Shown: in pieces, positions 48,230 to 53,321 of the stretch
How the letters are laid out: every line of letters begins with the position of its first letter
How positions within the stretch are numbered: position 1 is the first letter of the stretch
Assembly (NCBI RefSeq): GCF_013003915.1
Contig: NZ_JABAIV010000005.1
Span: 1-64,000 of the forward strand
Reading direction: 5' to 3'
DNA: 64,000 bases
Source: Telluria aromaticivorans
GTDB lineage: Bacteria > Pseudomonadota > Gammaproteobacteria > Burkholderiales > Burkholderiaceae_D
Position numbers and translations under genes: made by a program
Notes under the pieces: generated by a model
Database searches by the model: none
The model's input: the letters and a program-made list of their open reading frames with translations, nothing else
Told to the model about the DNA's origin: nothing

Positions 48230-48626
48230 CTAACTGAATTTATAGGTCTCCCGCATGTACACCGTCAGGCCGAGCGGGTCCGTGTCGCGCGGATCGTAGT
48301 CAAGCTGGAAGTTGGTGAGCTAGTTGGTAAAGGGCGGCTCCTTGTCGAACAGGTTCTTGATGTCCGCAGTGAACTCCGCCCGCTTGGTCGCCGGTATAGG
48401 TGCCGGAGAGCGACCAGGTCGAGTGATGGCCGACCGTGTTGAAGAACTCGGGCTCCACCGCCGAATTCTGGTCGGTGTAGTGCGACATGTAGCGCTTGGC
48501 CAGGTTGACCGTCCAGTCGCCGCGGCTCAGCGAGAACAGCAGGTTGTGGCGCGCAAGATGCTGTAGGATTCGCGCAACCGCTTGCCAAACCCGGTGGCCG
48601 CAGGCGACCGAGAAGTAGCTTGCCAA
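48230..48626 (-). pseudogene. Remnant C-terminus of a TonB-dependent receptor
   Basis: On the minus strand one frame gives NLLFSLSRGDWTVNLAKRYM and then SHYTDQNSAVEPEFF, typical of late receptor barrel strands. The match then shifts frame and continues as FTADIKNLFDKEPPFTN, an in-frame stop, LTNFQLDYDPRDTD, and the C-terminus MRETYKFS-stop with its terminal aromatic residue. One frameshift and one nonsense codon are therefore visible, and everything upstream of the last 120 or so residues is missing. It lies between tldD and aroG. It shows receptor genes are being lost as well as duplicated in this region. Confidence 0.8.
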
Positions 48627-48649
48627 TCTTCATGCTATATTGTTATAGT
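48620..48649 (+). promoter_or_regulatory. Promoter of the aroG leader
   Basis: TTGCCA (48620-48625), an 18-base spacer and TATAGT (48644-48649) give a start near 48656. This leaves a leader of about 220 bases before aroG, enough for the leader peptide and attenuator described next. Confidence 0.6.
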
Positions 48650-48686
48650 CAAACCAGACATAGCCAACCGGGCCAGATCGACTCCC

Positions 48687-48755
48687 ATGCGCCAGCACGT
48701 TTTCTTTACCTGCTATTTTTACTTTAGCCATTCCAGCCCCTTGGCGGTGGAGTAG
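48687..48755 (+). CDS. aroG leader peptide rich in Phe and Tyr
   Basis: A 22-codon open frame whose core is FFTCYFYF: six aromatic residues in eight codons (48702-48725), four Phe and two Tyr. Such composition marks attenuation leader peptides like PheL. A stalled ribosome at these codons would leave 48741-48748 free; a ribosome reaching the TAG at 48753-48755 would cover it. The weak point is the lack of a clear ribosome-binding site before ATG 48687. Low Phe or Tyr charging would then raise aroG expression. Confidence 0.7.
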   Translation: MRQHVFFTCYFYFSHSSPLAVE

Positions 48756-48826
48756 CGGCAGGTTCACGCGACAGCAGAACAGTCCGACGCAATCCAGACA
48801 AACCGCCAGCGATGGCGGTTTTTTGT
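48741..48826 (+). terminator. Attenuator ahead of aroG: terminator with competing antiterminator
   Basis: The terminator is aaccgcca-gcga-tggcggtt (48801-48820) with a GNRA loop, followed by six T at 48819-48824. The segment tggcggt at 48742-48748, inside the leader peptide end, equals the 3' arm and can pair with accgcca at 48802-48808, which prevents the terminator. This is the arrangement needed for ribosome-controlled attenuation. Confidence 0.72.
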
Positions 48827-48875
48827 TTTCAGCCCCCCGGCTCTTAGCCCAGACACACACACCACGGAGTACAGC

Positions 48876-49934
48876 ATGCCTCGCACCGACGACCTACGCA
48901 TCCGCGAAATGAAGGAACTGACGCCGCCCTCGCACCTGATCCGCGAGTTCCCGGTCACCCCGGCGGCCGAGCAGACCGCGGCCGGCGCGCGCGTGGCGCT
49001 GCACCGCATCCTGCACGGCCAGGACGACCGCGTGATGGTCGTGGTCGGCCCCTGCTCGATCCACGACCCGCAGGCCGCGCTCGAGTACGCGCGCCGCCTG
49101 GCGCCGCTGCGCCAGCGCCTGGCCGGCGAGCTTGAGATCGTGATGCGGGTGTATTTCGAGAAGCCGCGCACCACGGTCGGCTGGAAGGGCATGATCAACG
49201 ATCCGTACATGGACAACAGCTTCCGCATCAATGACGGCCTGCGCATGGCGCGCGAGCTGCTGCGTAGCATTAACGAGCTGGGCCTGCCGGCCGGCACCGA
49301 ATTCCTCGACGTGATCAGCCCGCAGTACATCGCCGATTTGATCAGCTGGGGCGCGATCGGGGCGCGGACCACCGAGTCGCAGGTGCACCGCGAGCTGGCC
49401 TCGGGCCTGTCCTGTCCGGTCGGCTTCAAGAACGGCACCGACGGCAACATCAAGATTGCGGCCGACGCGATGAAGGCGGCTTCGCAGCCGCACCATTTCC
49501 TGTCGGTGACCAAGGGCGGGCATTCGGCGATCGTGTCGACCGCGGGCAACGAGGATTGCCACATCATCCTGCGCGGCGGCAAGGCGCCGAACTACGATGC
49601 GGCCAGCGTCGAGGACGCCTGCAAACAGCTGGCCGCCAACGGGCTGGCAAGCCGCCTGATGATCGACGCTTCGCATGCAAACAGCAGCAAGAACCCGCAG
49701 AACCAGGTACCGGTATGCGCCGACATCGCGGCCCAGATCGCGGGCGGGGACGACCGCATCGTGGGCGTGATGATCGAATCGCACCTGGTAGCGGGGCGGC
49801 AGGACCTGGTGCCAGGCAAGGAACTGGTCTACGGGCAATCGGTGACCGATGGCTGCATCGACTGGGACACCAGCATCGGGGTGCTGGAGGGGCTGGCGGC
49901 GGCGGTTGTACAGCGCCGGCTGCGCCGCGAATAA
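48876..49934 (+). CDS. aroG: 3-deoxy-7-phosphoheptulonate (DAHP) synthase, class I
   Basis: A 352-residue, type I-alpha DAHP synthase, the first step of the shikimate pathway, joining phosphoenolpyruvate and erythrose-4-phosphate. Seen: MVVVGPCSIHDPQAALEYA near 53-71, RVYFEKPRTTVGWKGMINDP near 90-110, GARTTESQVHRELASGL near 160-176, GFKNGTDGN, and the metal/substrate residues in DASHANSSKN and ESHLVAG. Feedback specificity (Phe, Tyr or Trp) cannot be read safely; the aroG name follows overall type. The ribosome-binding site cggag precedes ATG 48876. The upstream leader suggests control by Phe and Tyr supply. A terminator shared with TBDR 5 follows. Confidence 0.94.
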   Translation: MPRTDDLRIREMKELTPPSHLIREFPVTPAAEQTAAGARVALHRILHGQDDRVMVVVGPCSIHDPQAALEYARRLAPLRQRLAGELEIVMRVYFEKPRTTVGWKGMINDPYMDNSFRINDGLRMARELLRSINELGLPAGTEFLDVISPQYIADLISWGAIGARTTESQVHRELASGLSCPVGFKNGTDGNIKIAADAMKAASQPHHFLSVTKGGHSAIVSTAGNEDCHIILRGGKAPNYDAASVEDACKQLAANGLASRLMIDASHANSSKNPQNQVPVCADIAAQIAGGDDRIVGVMIESHLVAGRQDLVPGKELVYGQSVTDGCIDWDTSIGVLEGLAAAVVQRRLRRE

Positions 49935-49966: not shown

Positions 49967-50008
49967 AAAAAAACGGCGCACCCAGTTCAACCTGGGTGCG
50001 CCGTTTTC
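49967..50008. terminator. Bidirectional terminator between aroG and TBDR 5
   Basis: The stem aaaacggcgcacccag / ctgggtgcgccgtttt has A and T runs on both sides. It serves the convergent aroG (plus) and TBDR 5 (minus) genes. Confidence 0.93.
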
Positions 50009-50023
50009 ATGTGACTCGCCGGA

Positions 50024-52945
50024 TTAGAACTTGGCGGTCAGGTTCAGGAACACATGACGGCCCATGGCGTCATACACCTGCGGGTAGGTGTTACCGTTAC
50101 CCAGGACTGCGGCGACGACACCGGTGACTGGCGGATCCTTGTCCAGCGAGTTGTTCACGCCAACGCGCAGGGTCAGGTTCTTGTTGATGGCCCACGAGCC
50201 CACCAGGTCCAGGTAGCTGCGCGCGGCAAGGCGTTCGTCGGCCGGCTCAAACTCGGTGCTGATCAGCGGGTTGTCGCTGGTAGCGTCGAGCTTCACGCCG
50301 CGGATGTAGCGCCAGGTCACGCCCACTTCCAGGCCCTGCCATGGGGTGCCCCACACGGCGCGGATCTTGTGGCGGTACTTCGGCAGCGGGGTGCCGCAGG
50401 TGGTGCCGTGCAGTCCCGCGCAGTCATACTCGCCCGAACCCGGGAAGTCTTCCTGCTTGAACTCCTTCAGGAAGGTGCCGATGTACGACAGGTCCAGGTT
50501 GCCGTAGCCGCCCATCTTGTAGCCGTAGTTCGCGCCCAGGTCGATGCCCTTGGTCGAAATCGAACCCAGGTTCTGGTTGGTCGCGACGATACGGCCGGCG
50601 TTCAGTGCCCACAGGGTACCGAGGCGGTCACGCTGGATCAGGCCGCAGAACTTCGCATCGCCGGTCTGCAAGCACTGGGTCAGGGTGGTCGATGCTGGCA
50701 AGCCGCCGATCGCGCCTTCGACACGCATGTCGAATGCATCGATTGTCATGCTCAGGTTGCGCATCGGGGTCAGCACCAGGCCCAGGGTGTACGAATCCGA
50801 CTCCTCCGGCGCCAGGCCGGTGTTGCCGCCGGTGATCTGGTTGTACTGCTGTGCCGGGCTGTCTTCGATACGGCCGTACTGGGCCGCGGTGACGCCGGTC
50901 AGCGCGCACTGTGCCAGGGTAGCCGACGGGGTGGCGCCGGCGCATGGGTCGGACGACATGCCGAACAGGCTCAGGCCTTGCGGCGTGAACAGTTCGACCA
51001 CGTTGGCGGCGCGGGCAGCGCGCTGGTAGCTGAAGCGCAGCTTGGCGGCTGCAATCGGCGACCATTCGGCGCCGGCGCCGTAGGAGCTGGTCTTCTGGCC
51101 GGTCGAGTAGTCCGACTTGCGGTAGGACGCGTTCAGGGTCAGCGACTCGGCGAACGGCATTTTTTCCAGCACCGGGATACGGGCTTCGGCGTAGTAGTCG
51201 CGTACGCTGAACTGGCCGGCCACGCCCAGGGTCGGGCCGCCCTGGCCGGCGAGGTCGCCGGTTTCGAAGGCGGTGTCGGTTGCCAGGTCGAGCTTTTCGG
51301 TGCGGTGTTCCCAGCCGAATGCAACGCCGATGCCGCGGTTGGTGGTCGGCAGCTTGATGCCGTATTCGCCCAGGTCGCTCGACAGGTTGATGCCCTGCAC
51401 GGTCTGCGAGGTGCTGCCCTTCTGGAAGCCAGGGGTCTGCAGGTATTTCAGTGCTTCAGGCGTGACGCCGCCCAGCGACCAGATGTTGTACGGGACGCAG
51501 TTGGTGTCGGTGCCGTCGATCACGCTCTGGCAGGTCGGCACGCCGTTCGGGCCCGCGACCACGTTCAGTGCGCGGCCGATGCGCTGGTTCGAGAAGTCGT
51601 TGAAATAGGTTTCCGAGTACAGCACCTTGCCGGCTTGCAGGAAGGCGTCGTAGGTCCAGTTGCCGACGTCGCCCTTCATGCCGATCACGCCGCGGTAGGA
51701 GGTGTGGCGCTGGTCGTCGCGGCGGCCGCCGCCTTCCACGTTGCGGCGGAAGATCAGTGCGTCGGCGGTATCGCCAGGGCCGGTCAGGCCCAGGTCGCGG
51801 CGCCATGCCGGCGACAGGAACGGGTTCTCGAAGCGGATCGCGTTCGAGCCCGAGGCGTCGAAGCCGAACAGGCCCGATGGAGCGATCTGGGCGACGGTGC
51901 TGTCATCGTGGAAGCTGGCTTCCGTGTACAGGCGCATCTGCTCGTTGATGTCGAAGTGCGTGAAGCTGCTAAAGGTGTAGCGCTCCGACGGACGGCGGAA
52001 ATAGTTCAGCGGGCCGTAGTTGTACTGGTCGGTGGCAGCCACGTACGGACGGGTGTTGCCGGCCGCATCGGCGACGGTGCGCTGGCCGGCGTCGGTGAAG
52101 AAGCGGCCTGGGAAGCTGGTGCCCGAACCGCCGCAATTGAAGGTGTTGCCCGAGCTGAAGCCATCCAGCGAGCAGGCGGTGAAGTCGCGCTCGGACTGCA
52201 GCAGCGCGTCTTCTTTCTTGTAGCCGAAGAAAGCGACGGCGTTACCGCGGCCATCGGCGAAGTTACCGCCCAGCAGCAGGTTGGCGTCCTTGATCTTGCC
52301 GTCGGCGCCCTTGTCGCCTGCGACCGGGAAATTACGGCGGCGTGCGGCGTCGGCAGCCATGCCACCGTTCTGCTGGTGATTGTAGAACGCGTAGTTGGTT
52401 TCCAGTTGCACGCCCTGGAAATTGTCGTTCATGATGAAGTTGACGACACCTGCGACCGCGTCCGAGCCGTAGATGGCCGAGGCGCCGCCGGTCAGCACTT
52501 CGACGCGCTTGATCAGCGCTGCCGGAATCTGGTTCAAGTCGGCTGCGGTGTTGCGCGGCGAACCTGCCGGCAAGCGGCGGCCGTTGACCAGCACCAGGGT
52601 GCGGTCGGCGCCGAAGTTGCGCAGGTTGACGGTTGCGGTGCCGGACGAGCCGTTCGAGATCGAACCACCCTGGTCGGCGAAGACCTGGGGCAGGTTGTTC
52701 AGCAGGTTTTCCACCGAACGCGTGCCTTCCAGCTTGATGTCCTTGGCGCCCACCACGGTCACCGGGCTCACGCTTTCGAGGTTGGCGGTTGCGATACGCG
52801 AACCGGTCACTTCCACGCGTTGCAGGTTCTGGCCTTCGCCAGCTGGAGCCTGTTGCGCTTCCTGCGCATAGGCGGTAGCGGCAAATGCCATGCCGCCTGC
52901 GAACATCAATCGAACCGAACGAGATATTACTGTTTCAACCATCAT
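50024..52945 (-). CDS. TonB-dependent receptor (TBDR 5)
   Basis: A 973-residue receptor. The signal peptide is about 1-28 (ATAYAQEA), then LQRVEVTGSRI, a plug with LVLVNGRRLPAGS and VLTGGASAIYGSDAVAGVVNFIMND, and a barrel ending HVFLNLTAKF. Two consecutive ATGs (52945, 52942) lie behind a ctggga ribosome-binding site. The first residues (MVETVISRSVR) resemble TBDR 3 (METLLSRSIRA), but the plug and barrel are of another subgroup. It is divergent from an Opp/Yej-like ABC importer, 376 bases away, which suggests they may handle the same ligand class, perhaps peptides; this is inference from position only. Confidence 0.95.
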   Translation of the reverse strand: MMVETVISRSVRLMFAGGMAFAATAYAQEAQQAPAGEGQNLQRVEVTGSRIATANLESVSPVTVVGAKDIKLEGTRSVENLLNNLPQVFADQGGSISNGSSGTATVNLRNFGADRTLVLVNGRRLPAGSPRNTAADLNQIPAALIKRVEVLTGGASAIYGSDAVAGVVNFIMNDNFQGVQLETNYAFYNHQQNGGMAADAARRRNFPVAGDKGADGKIKDANLLLGGNFADGRGNAVAFFGYKKEDALLQSERDFTACSLDGFSSGNTFNCGGSGTSFPGRFFTDAGQRTVADAAGNTRPYVAATDQYNYGPLNYFRRPSERYTFSSFTHFDINEQMRLYTEASFHDDSTVAQIAPSGLFGFDASGSNAIRFENPFLSPAWRRDLGLTGPGDTADALIFRRNVEGGGRRDDQRHTSYRGVIGMKGDVGNWTYDAFLQAGKVLYSETYFNDFSNQRIGRALNVVAGPNGVPTCQSVIDGTDTNCVPYNIWSLGGVTPEALKYLQTPGFQKGSTSQTVQGINLSSDLGEYGIKLPTTNRGIGVAFGWEHRTEKLDLATDTAFETGDLAGQGGPTLGVAGQFSVRDYYAEARIPVLEKMPFAESLTLNASYRKSDYSTGQKTSSYGAGAEWSPIAAAKLRFSYQRAARAANVVELFTPQGLSLFGMSSDPCAGATPSATLAQCALTGVTAAQYGRIEDSPAQQYNQITGGNTGLAPEESDSYTLGLVLTPMRNLSMTIDAFDMRVEGAIGGLPASTTLTQCLQTGDAKFCGLIQRDRLGTLWALNAGRIVATNQNLGSISTKGIDLGANYGYKMGGYGNLDLSYIGTFLKEFKQEDFPGSGEYDCAGLHGTTCGTPLPKYRHKIRAVWGTPWQGLEVGVTWRYIRGVKLDATSDNPLISTEFEPADERLAARSYLDLVGSWAINKNLTLRVGVNNSLDKDPPVTGVVAAVLGNGNTYPQVYDAMGRHVFLNLTAKF

Positions 52946-53321
52946 GTCGAAAATTCCCAGGTAAGCCCTGCGGCTCTTTTTTTGACGACGTCCGCAGAGG
53001 TGCATCGATCACGTTGCCGCACAAAATACAAAAACGGCATCTTTTACTACCTGGCAATAAAAACATTCGTGTGCATACGTTGTCAATTGGAATGTCTGTA
53101 CAAGATATAAATACAACTATTGTCGAAAAGTATTTACAAAAAATCGATTTGGCCTTATACGCGGGAAACAAAAAGGAATGGGCTGATGGCATCCTGGCCA
53201 CCTGTCAACCCGGCGGAATATGCGCTATCGTTACGCCTCTTCGGCCCGCCTCTTCGACCGCCTTCACGCGGCGCCAGACGCGCGCAACCGGTGCCGATCT
53301 TTCTGGACCTTCAGGAAACCT
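52946..53321. other. AT-rich divergent control region between TBDR 5 and the ABC importer
   Basis: The centre (about 53020-53170) is strikingly AT-rich. It holds the TBDR 5 promoter on the minus strand. A promoter for the ABC genes must also be here, but no single choice is convincing. No RNA gene or ORF with a ribosome-binding site is seen. Confidence 0.55.
53057..53086 (-). promoter_or_regulatory. Extended -10 promoter of TBDR 5
   Basis: On the minus strand TTGACA (53086-53081), an 18-base spacer with TG at positions 16-17, then TTTTAT (53062-53057). The leader is about 105 bases. The -10 hexamer is identical to that of TBDR 1. Confidence 0.65.

Follow-up and report, generated by a model that had tools for sequence, protein, structure and literature searches.

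An aromatic leader frame, a terminator and an antiterminator copy precede the DAHP synthase gene aroG in Telluria aromaticivorans and probably form a transcription attenuator

Many gammaproteobacterial groups have conserved the regulators TrpR and TyrR, which are absent in other classes, as stated in the accessible part of a regulon study (PMC5343134). This leaves open how betaproteobacteria tune the first step of the shikimate pathway. Is this step controlled in Telluria aromaticivorans by a translated leader ahead of the DAHP synthase gene aroG? The question was raised by a sequence-only reading of a 64,000-nucleotide stretch of the genome (contig NZ_JABAIV010000005.1, positions 1 to 64,000 of the forward strand), called the window below. 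It claimed a sigma-70 promoter, a 22-codon frame with the core FFTCYFYF between this promoter and aroG, a GNRA-looped terminator with a T run and a seven-base copy of the terminator 3' arm behind the aromatic codons. We could confirm that the aromatic leader frame, the terminator and the antiterminator copy ahead of aroG are real, with all named features present. In the 260 bases 5' of aroG a promoter match, the leader frame, a terminator hairpin with T-rich tail, a GGAG motif and the aroG start follow each other in this order (window coordinates):

48620..48649, plus strand: sigma-70 type promoter match TTGCCA-18-TATAGT (sequence motif)
48687..48755, plus strand: leader peptide MRQHVFFTCYFYFSHSSPLAVE-stop, 22 codons, ATG start, TAG stop (sequence; kept upstream of aroG in relatives)
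48702..48725, plus strand: aromatic codon run FFTCYFYF, codons 6-13, presumed sensor (sequence; selection for aromatic residues)
48708..48713, plus strand: region 1 outer arm ACCTGC, pairs with 48758-48763, GCAGGT (alignment pairing, fold)
48727..48735, plus strand: region 1 inner arm, pairs with 48748-48756 (alignment pairing, fold)
48742..48748, plus strand: region 2, antiterminator arm TGGCGGT, repeats the terminator 3' arm (sequence; GGCGG core in 129/129 distinct leader segments)
48758..48763, plus strand: 3' arm of the outer protector helix, directly after the stop codon (alignment pairing)
48800..48821, plus strand: intrinsic terminator hairpin, regions 3 and 4 (98.9% of cells paired; -14.2 kcal/mol, z -4.0)
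48802..48808, plus strand: region 3, ACCGCCA, common to antiterminator and terminator (alignment pairing)
48866..48869, plus strand: GGAG, likely aroG ribosome-binding site, 3' of the terminator (sequence)
48876..49934, plus strand: aroG, class I DAHP synthase, 352 aa (NCBIfam and structure matches)

With a probability of about 0.9 we consider that a ribosome-mediated transcription attenuator controls aroG via the supply of Phe and Tyr, in half of the relatives also of Trp. The parts, their conservation, the selection on aromatic codons and the retention of the antiterminator core as RNA are observed; leader translation, ribosome stalling and read-through upon starvation are predicted from them.

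The terminator consists of a 9-bp stem with a GCGA loop followed by TTTGTTTT, its T-rich tail extending to about 48829, and lies between leader and structural gene. Upstream of it is a short frame with many codons for end products of the pathway that would be controlled. As judged by sequence and folding, the antiterminator uses the 5' arm of the terminator as well and reaches into the end of the leader. The promoter match was the sole promoter-like site in 48300-49000, where 0.2 are expected per shuffle. As a raw pattern count, 117 of 139 leaders had a similar TTG[CT]CA-N16-19-TATA-type match not more than 100 bases on their 5' side. The ribosome-binding site of the leader had been called poor, and rightly so. 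It is weak in the window and in the relatives too, where 33 of 139 leaders have no SD-like triplet and 63 have GGA only. The aroG product exceeded the cutoff of NCBIfam NF006723 AroG (584.5 bits, cutoff 568), and the closest solved structures were those of E. coli AroG (DAHP synthase 1n8f, E 2.3e-152). In the structure-match alignment D146, P150 and S180 of the E. coli enzyme are kept, which we take to be residues marking inhibition by Phe.

The surroundings of the locus had features of their own. On the minus strand between tldD and the leader (48265-48633) the two longest frames had no Pfam match; the stretch may be the decaying remnant of a gene end. An inverted repeat, strong and with A and T runs on its sides (49970-50007), separates aroG from a convergent gene, a TonB-dependent receptor according to Pfam (50024-53005, minus strand), and is probably a terminator shared by both. 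Elsewhere in the genome there is a second DAHP synthase with 50% identity to AroG (L002, G000:C12:666812-667849), which has no aromatic leader.

The aromatic leader frame is unlikely to be a product of chance. Of the 594 ATG frames with 8-45 codons that the window has on its two strands, a single one, the leader, had at least six F, Y or W in nine residues, and none of 5000 dinucleotide shuffles of 48656-48875 yielded such a frame. Between run and terminator, 72 of 5000 shuffles reached a complement of the terminator arm as long as the 7 bases observed. Folding of 48656-48830 had been suggested as a check. The region as a whole was not unusually stable (z -0.99); the terminator scored -4.0, the protector region -2.3, the antiterminator region -1.9 and regions 2 to 4 -1.2. 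Folding of a single sequence by itself would not convince.

Relatives were compared as well. AroG was used to search 62 genomes of the same genus; one of them (G043) had no AroG proper, its only match being 51% identical. All 61 genus genomes whose upstream region was readable had leader and terminator ahead of aroG. Loss of the aromatic run or of the hairpins in close relatives, named beforehand as an outcome that would speak against attenuation, was looked for and not encountered in these genomes. A second, contig-end copy without leader in one genome (L139 in G030) and the paralogue L002 were excluded from the counts. Among titled records, of which the best 80 of at least 594 stretches encoding a relative were taken, 78 loci had leader and terminator; the exceptions were L065, which has no leader, and L078, in which no stop codon interrupts the frame ahead of the terminator. 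The two sets overlap, and their 138 upstream segments correspond to 129 distinct ones.

Three of the titled records had peculiarities. In L065, an Oxalobacteraceae MAG (the same genome as L145), aroG is close behind tldD and there is no leader, which is a natural loss or absence. In Candidatus Burkholderia humilis (L078) the leader frame runs through the terminator, perhaps as decay of the switch. Undibacterium sp. TS12 (L093, 2403-3000) has an intact leader and terminator at a distance of 458 bases from aroG, far beyond other leaders; the leader start is 598 bases before aroG.

For the order as a whole 120 genomes were drawn, of which 92 had a DAHP synthase match at E <= 1e-60. Sixty upstream regions were picked by hand with a preference for the closest AroG per family; two were from the window's own family, and L145 is from the genome of L065. 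Leader and terminator were present in 22 of these 60 regions, i.e. in 13 of 32 families, and absent from 38. The positives were recognized by script in 16 cases and by reading in six (L169, L178, L182, L194, L195, L198). An exact GGCGG followed within 45 bases after the run in 20 of the 22, the exceptions being L151 and L186. In addition, a covariance model (R1) was built from an alignment of 40 diverse representatives, mainly Oxalobacteraceae (A1), the building sequences of which match by construction. In the 5.2 Mb genome of the window R1 recognized a single strong place, at aroG (E 4.3e-27); weaker matches were the same terminator read backwards (0.15) and a next one at 3.7. In 46 of 60 family genomes R1 matched at E <= 1.9e-16, at one place each, and in 57 of 60 at E <= 0.1, matches being counted irrespective of adjoining genes. 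By these comparisons the aroG leader element looks widespread in the bacterial order.

Is the leader kept for its aromatic codons? A plain count in the 22-codon leaders had shown no synonymous excess (25 synonymous vs 73 nonsynonymous; 30:73 and 22:80 in the other frames), partly because exchanges between F, Y and W count as nonsynonymous. After this outcome a test of aromatic preservation was chosen, using 84 nearest-neighbour pairs and an expectation from single-base changes. Of 105 differing aromatic codons 56 stayed aromatic (40 of them synonymous) against 25% expected. In the other two frames 7/68 and 4/68 were preserved against 19% and 28% expected. The binomial test gave p = 8e-10 on the assumption that the pairs are independent; being related, they are so only in part. 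Exchanges between F, Y and W accounted for 16 of the 105 codons. The run of the 129 distinct leaders contained Phe and Tyr in 65, Phe, Tyr and Trp in 58, and Phe and Trp in six. Thus Phe was in all 129, Tyr in 123 and Trp in 64; the window's own leader has no Trp, and a Leu codon was found in the run of none of the 129. The pheA-type logic with a Phe/Tyr run, as initially proposed, is supported by this conservation; the sensor had to be refined, and Trp, being in the run of half of the distinct leaders, may belong to it.

Within attenuation, a variant would be that the leader senses Phe alone or the general speed of translation, with the Tyr and Trp codons as passengers. Phe is the one aromatic residue in every distinct leader, and the AroG enzyme keeps the three residues which we presume to be linked to Phe inhibition. 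In Corynebacterium glutamicum the aroR leader has Phe-Tyr-Phe, yet availability of Tyr was without effect according to the part of the review at hand (PMC11802643). On the other side are the retention of Tyr in 123 of 129 leaders and the F-Y-W exchanges (16/105), which suggest a sensor for the aromatic amino acids as a group and are not decisive. We give the variant less than even odds.

Past the aromatic run the peptide sequence is not kept, unlike the GGCGG core of region 2, which was present in all 129 distinct leaders. Its first copy is in frame 2 in 114 leaders, in frame 1 in 13 and in frame 0 in two, apparently due to several separate small indels. Conservation in three reading frames indicated that the core is kept as RNA and not as protein. 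The leader as a whole is kept as both, as a peptide in its aromatic codons and as RNA past the run.

These data bear on a rival explanation in which the terminator merely ends transcription from the tldD side, the aromatic frame is accidental and aroG is transcribed constitutively past a leaky terminator. The terminator does sit between tldD and aroG, and in L065, where the element is missing, aroG is close behind tldD. However, aromatic frame and terminator are kept together across families, the aromatic codons are under selection, the antiterminator core is kept in three frames, and 117 of 139 leaders have a promoter-like site at their 5' side. We regard this explanation as very improbable and continue with attenuation of aroG by its leader.

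Do the RNA helices vary in a compensatory manner? This had been proposed for both hairpins, and changes on both sides were seen in the terminator and in the outer protector helix. In A1 98.9% of the terminator cells were paired, with changes on both sides at two pairs. The six core pairs of the antiterminator were invariant in 40 of 40 sequences and thus uninformative; covariation is not scorable because the core never varies in A1. The seventh pair seen in the window is broken in 33 of the 40, so that the full seven-base match does not hold generally. The outer protector helix is ACCTGC/GCAGGT in the window and has the forms ACCGGC/GCCGGT and ACCCGC/GCGGGT elsewhere. In A1 69.6% of its cells were paired vs 61.3% in shuffles; 16 cells were changed on both sides vs 6.5 in shuffles, a value equalled or passed by two slid versions of the helix (16 and 17). 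In the inner protector helix 90.5% of the cells were paired with little covariation. RNAalifold on A1 recovered the terminator and did not predict the protector hairpin. In A1 region 1 lies within and after the codon run. In 12 Burkholderiaceae representatives (A2) it is UCCGCCA in codons 2-4, before the run, so that the element reads CCGCC - GGCGG - CCGCC - GGCGG. With regions 1 and 4 omitted, every one of the 52 representatives folded into the 2:3 antiterminator; compared with shuffled spacers, the whole 2:3 fold was only mildly lower in energy (mean z -1.05, n = 40; -0.49, n = 12). Once region 4 was transcribed the terminator fold won.

After the stop codon, 48757-48768 (GGCAGGTTCACG) is well kept in A1. 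It fits the RNA polymerase pause consensus GG-N8-CG, 11 bases 3' of the inner protector hairpin, and is a candidate pause motif.

Ribosome-mediated attenuation is a textbook mechanism, and for the trp attenuator of E. coli (trpL) a four-region scheme is established. The aroG leader has the same 1:2 / 2:3 / 3:4 logic. It differs from trpL, which uses Trp codons, and its region 1 is in or after the run (A1) or in codons 2-4 before it (A2). Going by the promoter match, RNA polymerase would start about 30 bases before the leader frame. When charged tRNA-Phe or tRNA-Tyr is short, in about half of the relatives also that for Trp, the ribosome would stall at codons 6-13. Its footprint would cover the outer arm of region 1, from the later codons on also the inner arm, and leave region 2 (48742-48748) free. 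Region 2 then would pair with region 3 (48802-48808), no terminator would form and aroG would be transcribed. With good supply the ribosome would proceed to the TAG codon and cover region 2. Region 3 would pair with region 4 and transcription would end after about 170 bases.

The stall model took a ribosome footprint from -14 to +15 relative to the P site and ended the transcript before region 4. In the window the antiterminator probability stayed at 0.71-0.72 whichever of codons 6-13 occupied the A site; it was down to 0.31 at codon 16, reached 0.11 at the stop codon and amounted to 0.65 without ribosome. Thus, in silico, the antiterminator is freed by stalling in the run and blocked once the ribosome is at the stop codon. 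The A1 averages (n = 40) were 0.53 before the run, 0.56 in the run, 0.23 after it, 0.30 at the stop and 0.21 without ribosome. For A2 (n = 12) the respective values were 0.70, 0.67, 0.35, 0.48 and 0.69, i.e. the contrast between run and stop is weak (0.67 vs 0.48). In both sets codons before the run scored about as high as the run itself. In this model the drop in antiterminator probability after the run fits attenuation. Without ribosome the protector hairpin does not beat the antiterminator thermodynamically in the window or in A2. The high ribosome-free values of window and A2 do not show the protector hairpin at work; kinetic folding may be needed to account for it.

Could the terminated RNA itself be the active product? 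The Sinorhizobium trp leader is described as acting in trans, and the terminated leader RNA or the leader peptide of aroG might do so as well. In its favour, the RNA predicted to be terminated would have a discrete size of about 170 bases, and the element is old. However, frame shifts alter the C-terminus of the peptide, the RNA outside the hairpins varies, and nothing examined supports a trans role. Such an action is highly unlikely in our view, and control in cis, by attenuation of aroG, is preferred.

How does the aroG leader compare with known systems? In E. coli, pheA (pheL) and pheST have a Phe leader and transcription attenuation by the supply of charged tRNA-Phe, as summarized in the accessible part of PMC11802643. 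The likeness is the Phe leader and attenuation of transcription; those attenuators control pheA and the Phe-tRNA synthetase, whereas here aroG is concerned and the run mixes Phe, Tyr and often Trp. In C. glutamicum the aroR leader (Phe-Tyr-Phe) precedes aroF, a DAHP synthase gene, acts by ribosome stalling and responds to limitation of Phe, not of Tyr (Neshat et al. 2014, as cited in the part of the review PMC11802643 at hand). By description both are leader controls of a DAHP synthase; C. glutamicum belongs to a different phylum and its leader precedes aroF. The uORFC-13-1 motif before aroF in Acholeplasma, with a predicted Phe-coding upstream frame and a terminator (PMC8632094, accessible part), also combines an aromatic-type frame and a terminator before a DAHP synthase gene. 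According to the same part of that source it is a prediction with 24 representatives, from Acholeplasma and environmental DNA only. The reading that attenuation would act at the first shikimate step, aroG being a DAHP synthase gene, has these precedents in PMC11802643 and PMC8632094. Because they exist, the kind of switch is known; new is the aroG instance with its wide, unlisted distribution.

In Rfam 15 (4227 families, those of leaders among them) the window and six loci had no match at gathering; at E <= 1 the only match in 48600-48900 was RNAI with 19.4 bits against a gathering score of 47. Four leader peptides had no match in NCBIfam and Pfam, so short a peptide being a weak query. The freely accessible literature searched contained no report of an aroG leader in betaproteobacteria; a comparison of attenuators in proteobacteria from 2004 is a subscription paper, and the supplementary tables of PMC2965389 might list the site. 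The accessible parts of the main text of this survey of premature terminators and of PMC5343134 do not mention the element. PMC1173090, in its accessible part, took putative attenuators from a public database for tyrA operons only. The Bordetella small RNA S17 was considered as a counterpart of the leader and rejected since it lies elsewhere (PMC11722255, accessible part).

More tentatively, a single leader might read the supply of Phe, Tyr and Trp together and gate entry into the shikimate pathway, with order and position of the codons weighting each amino acid. Between families the protector arm would have shifted its place with respect to the codon run, the GGCGG/CCGCC ladder remaining where it was, and the leaders would constitute an undescribed family over much of the order. 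The aroG leader would add an RNA family which is missing from Rfam 15. The different arrangements of Phe, Tyr and Trp codons in the leaders are a natural series for measuring how an attenuator weighs several amino acids. With its presence in 13 of the 32 families sampled from the order, the aroG leader attenuator would be a direct and testable answer to the question of how betaproteobacteria control the shikimate pathway.
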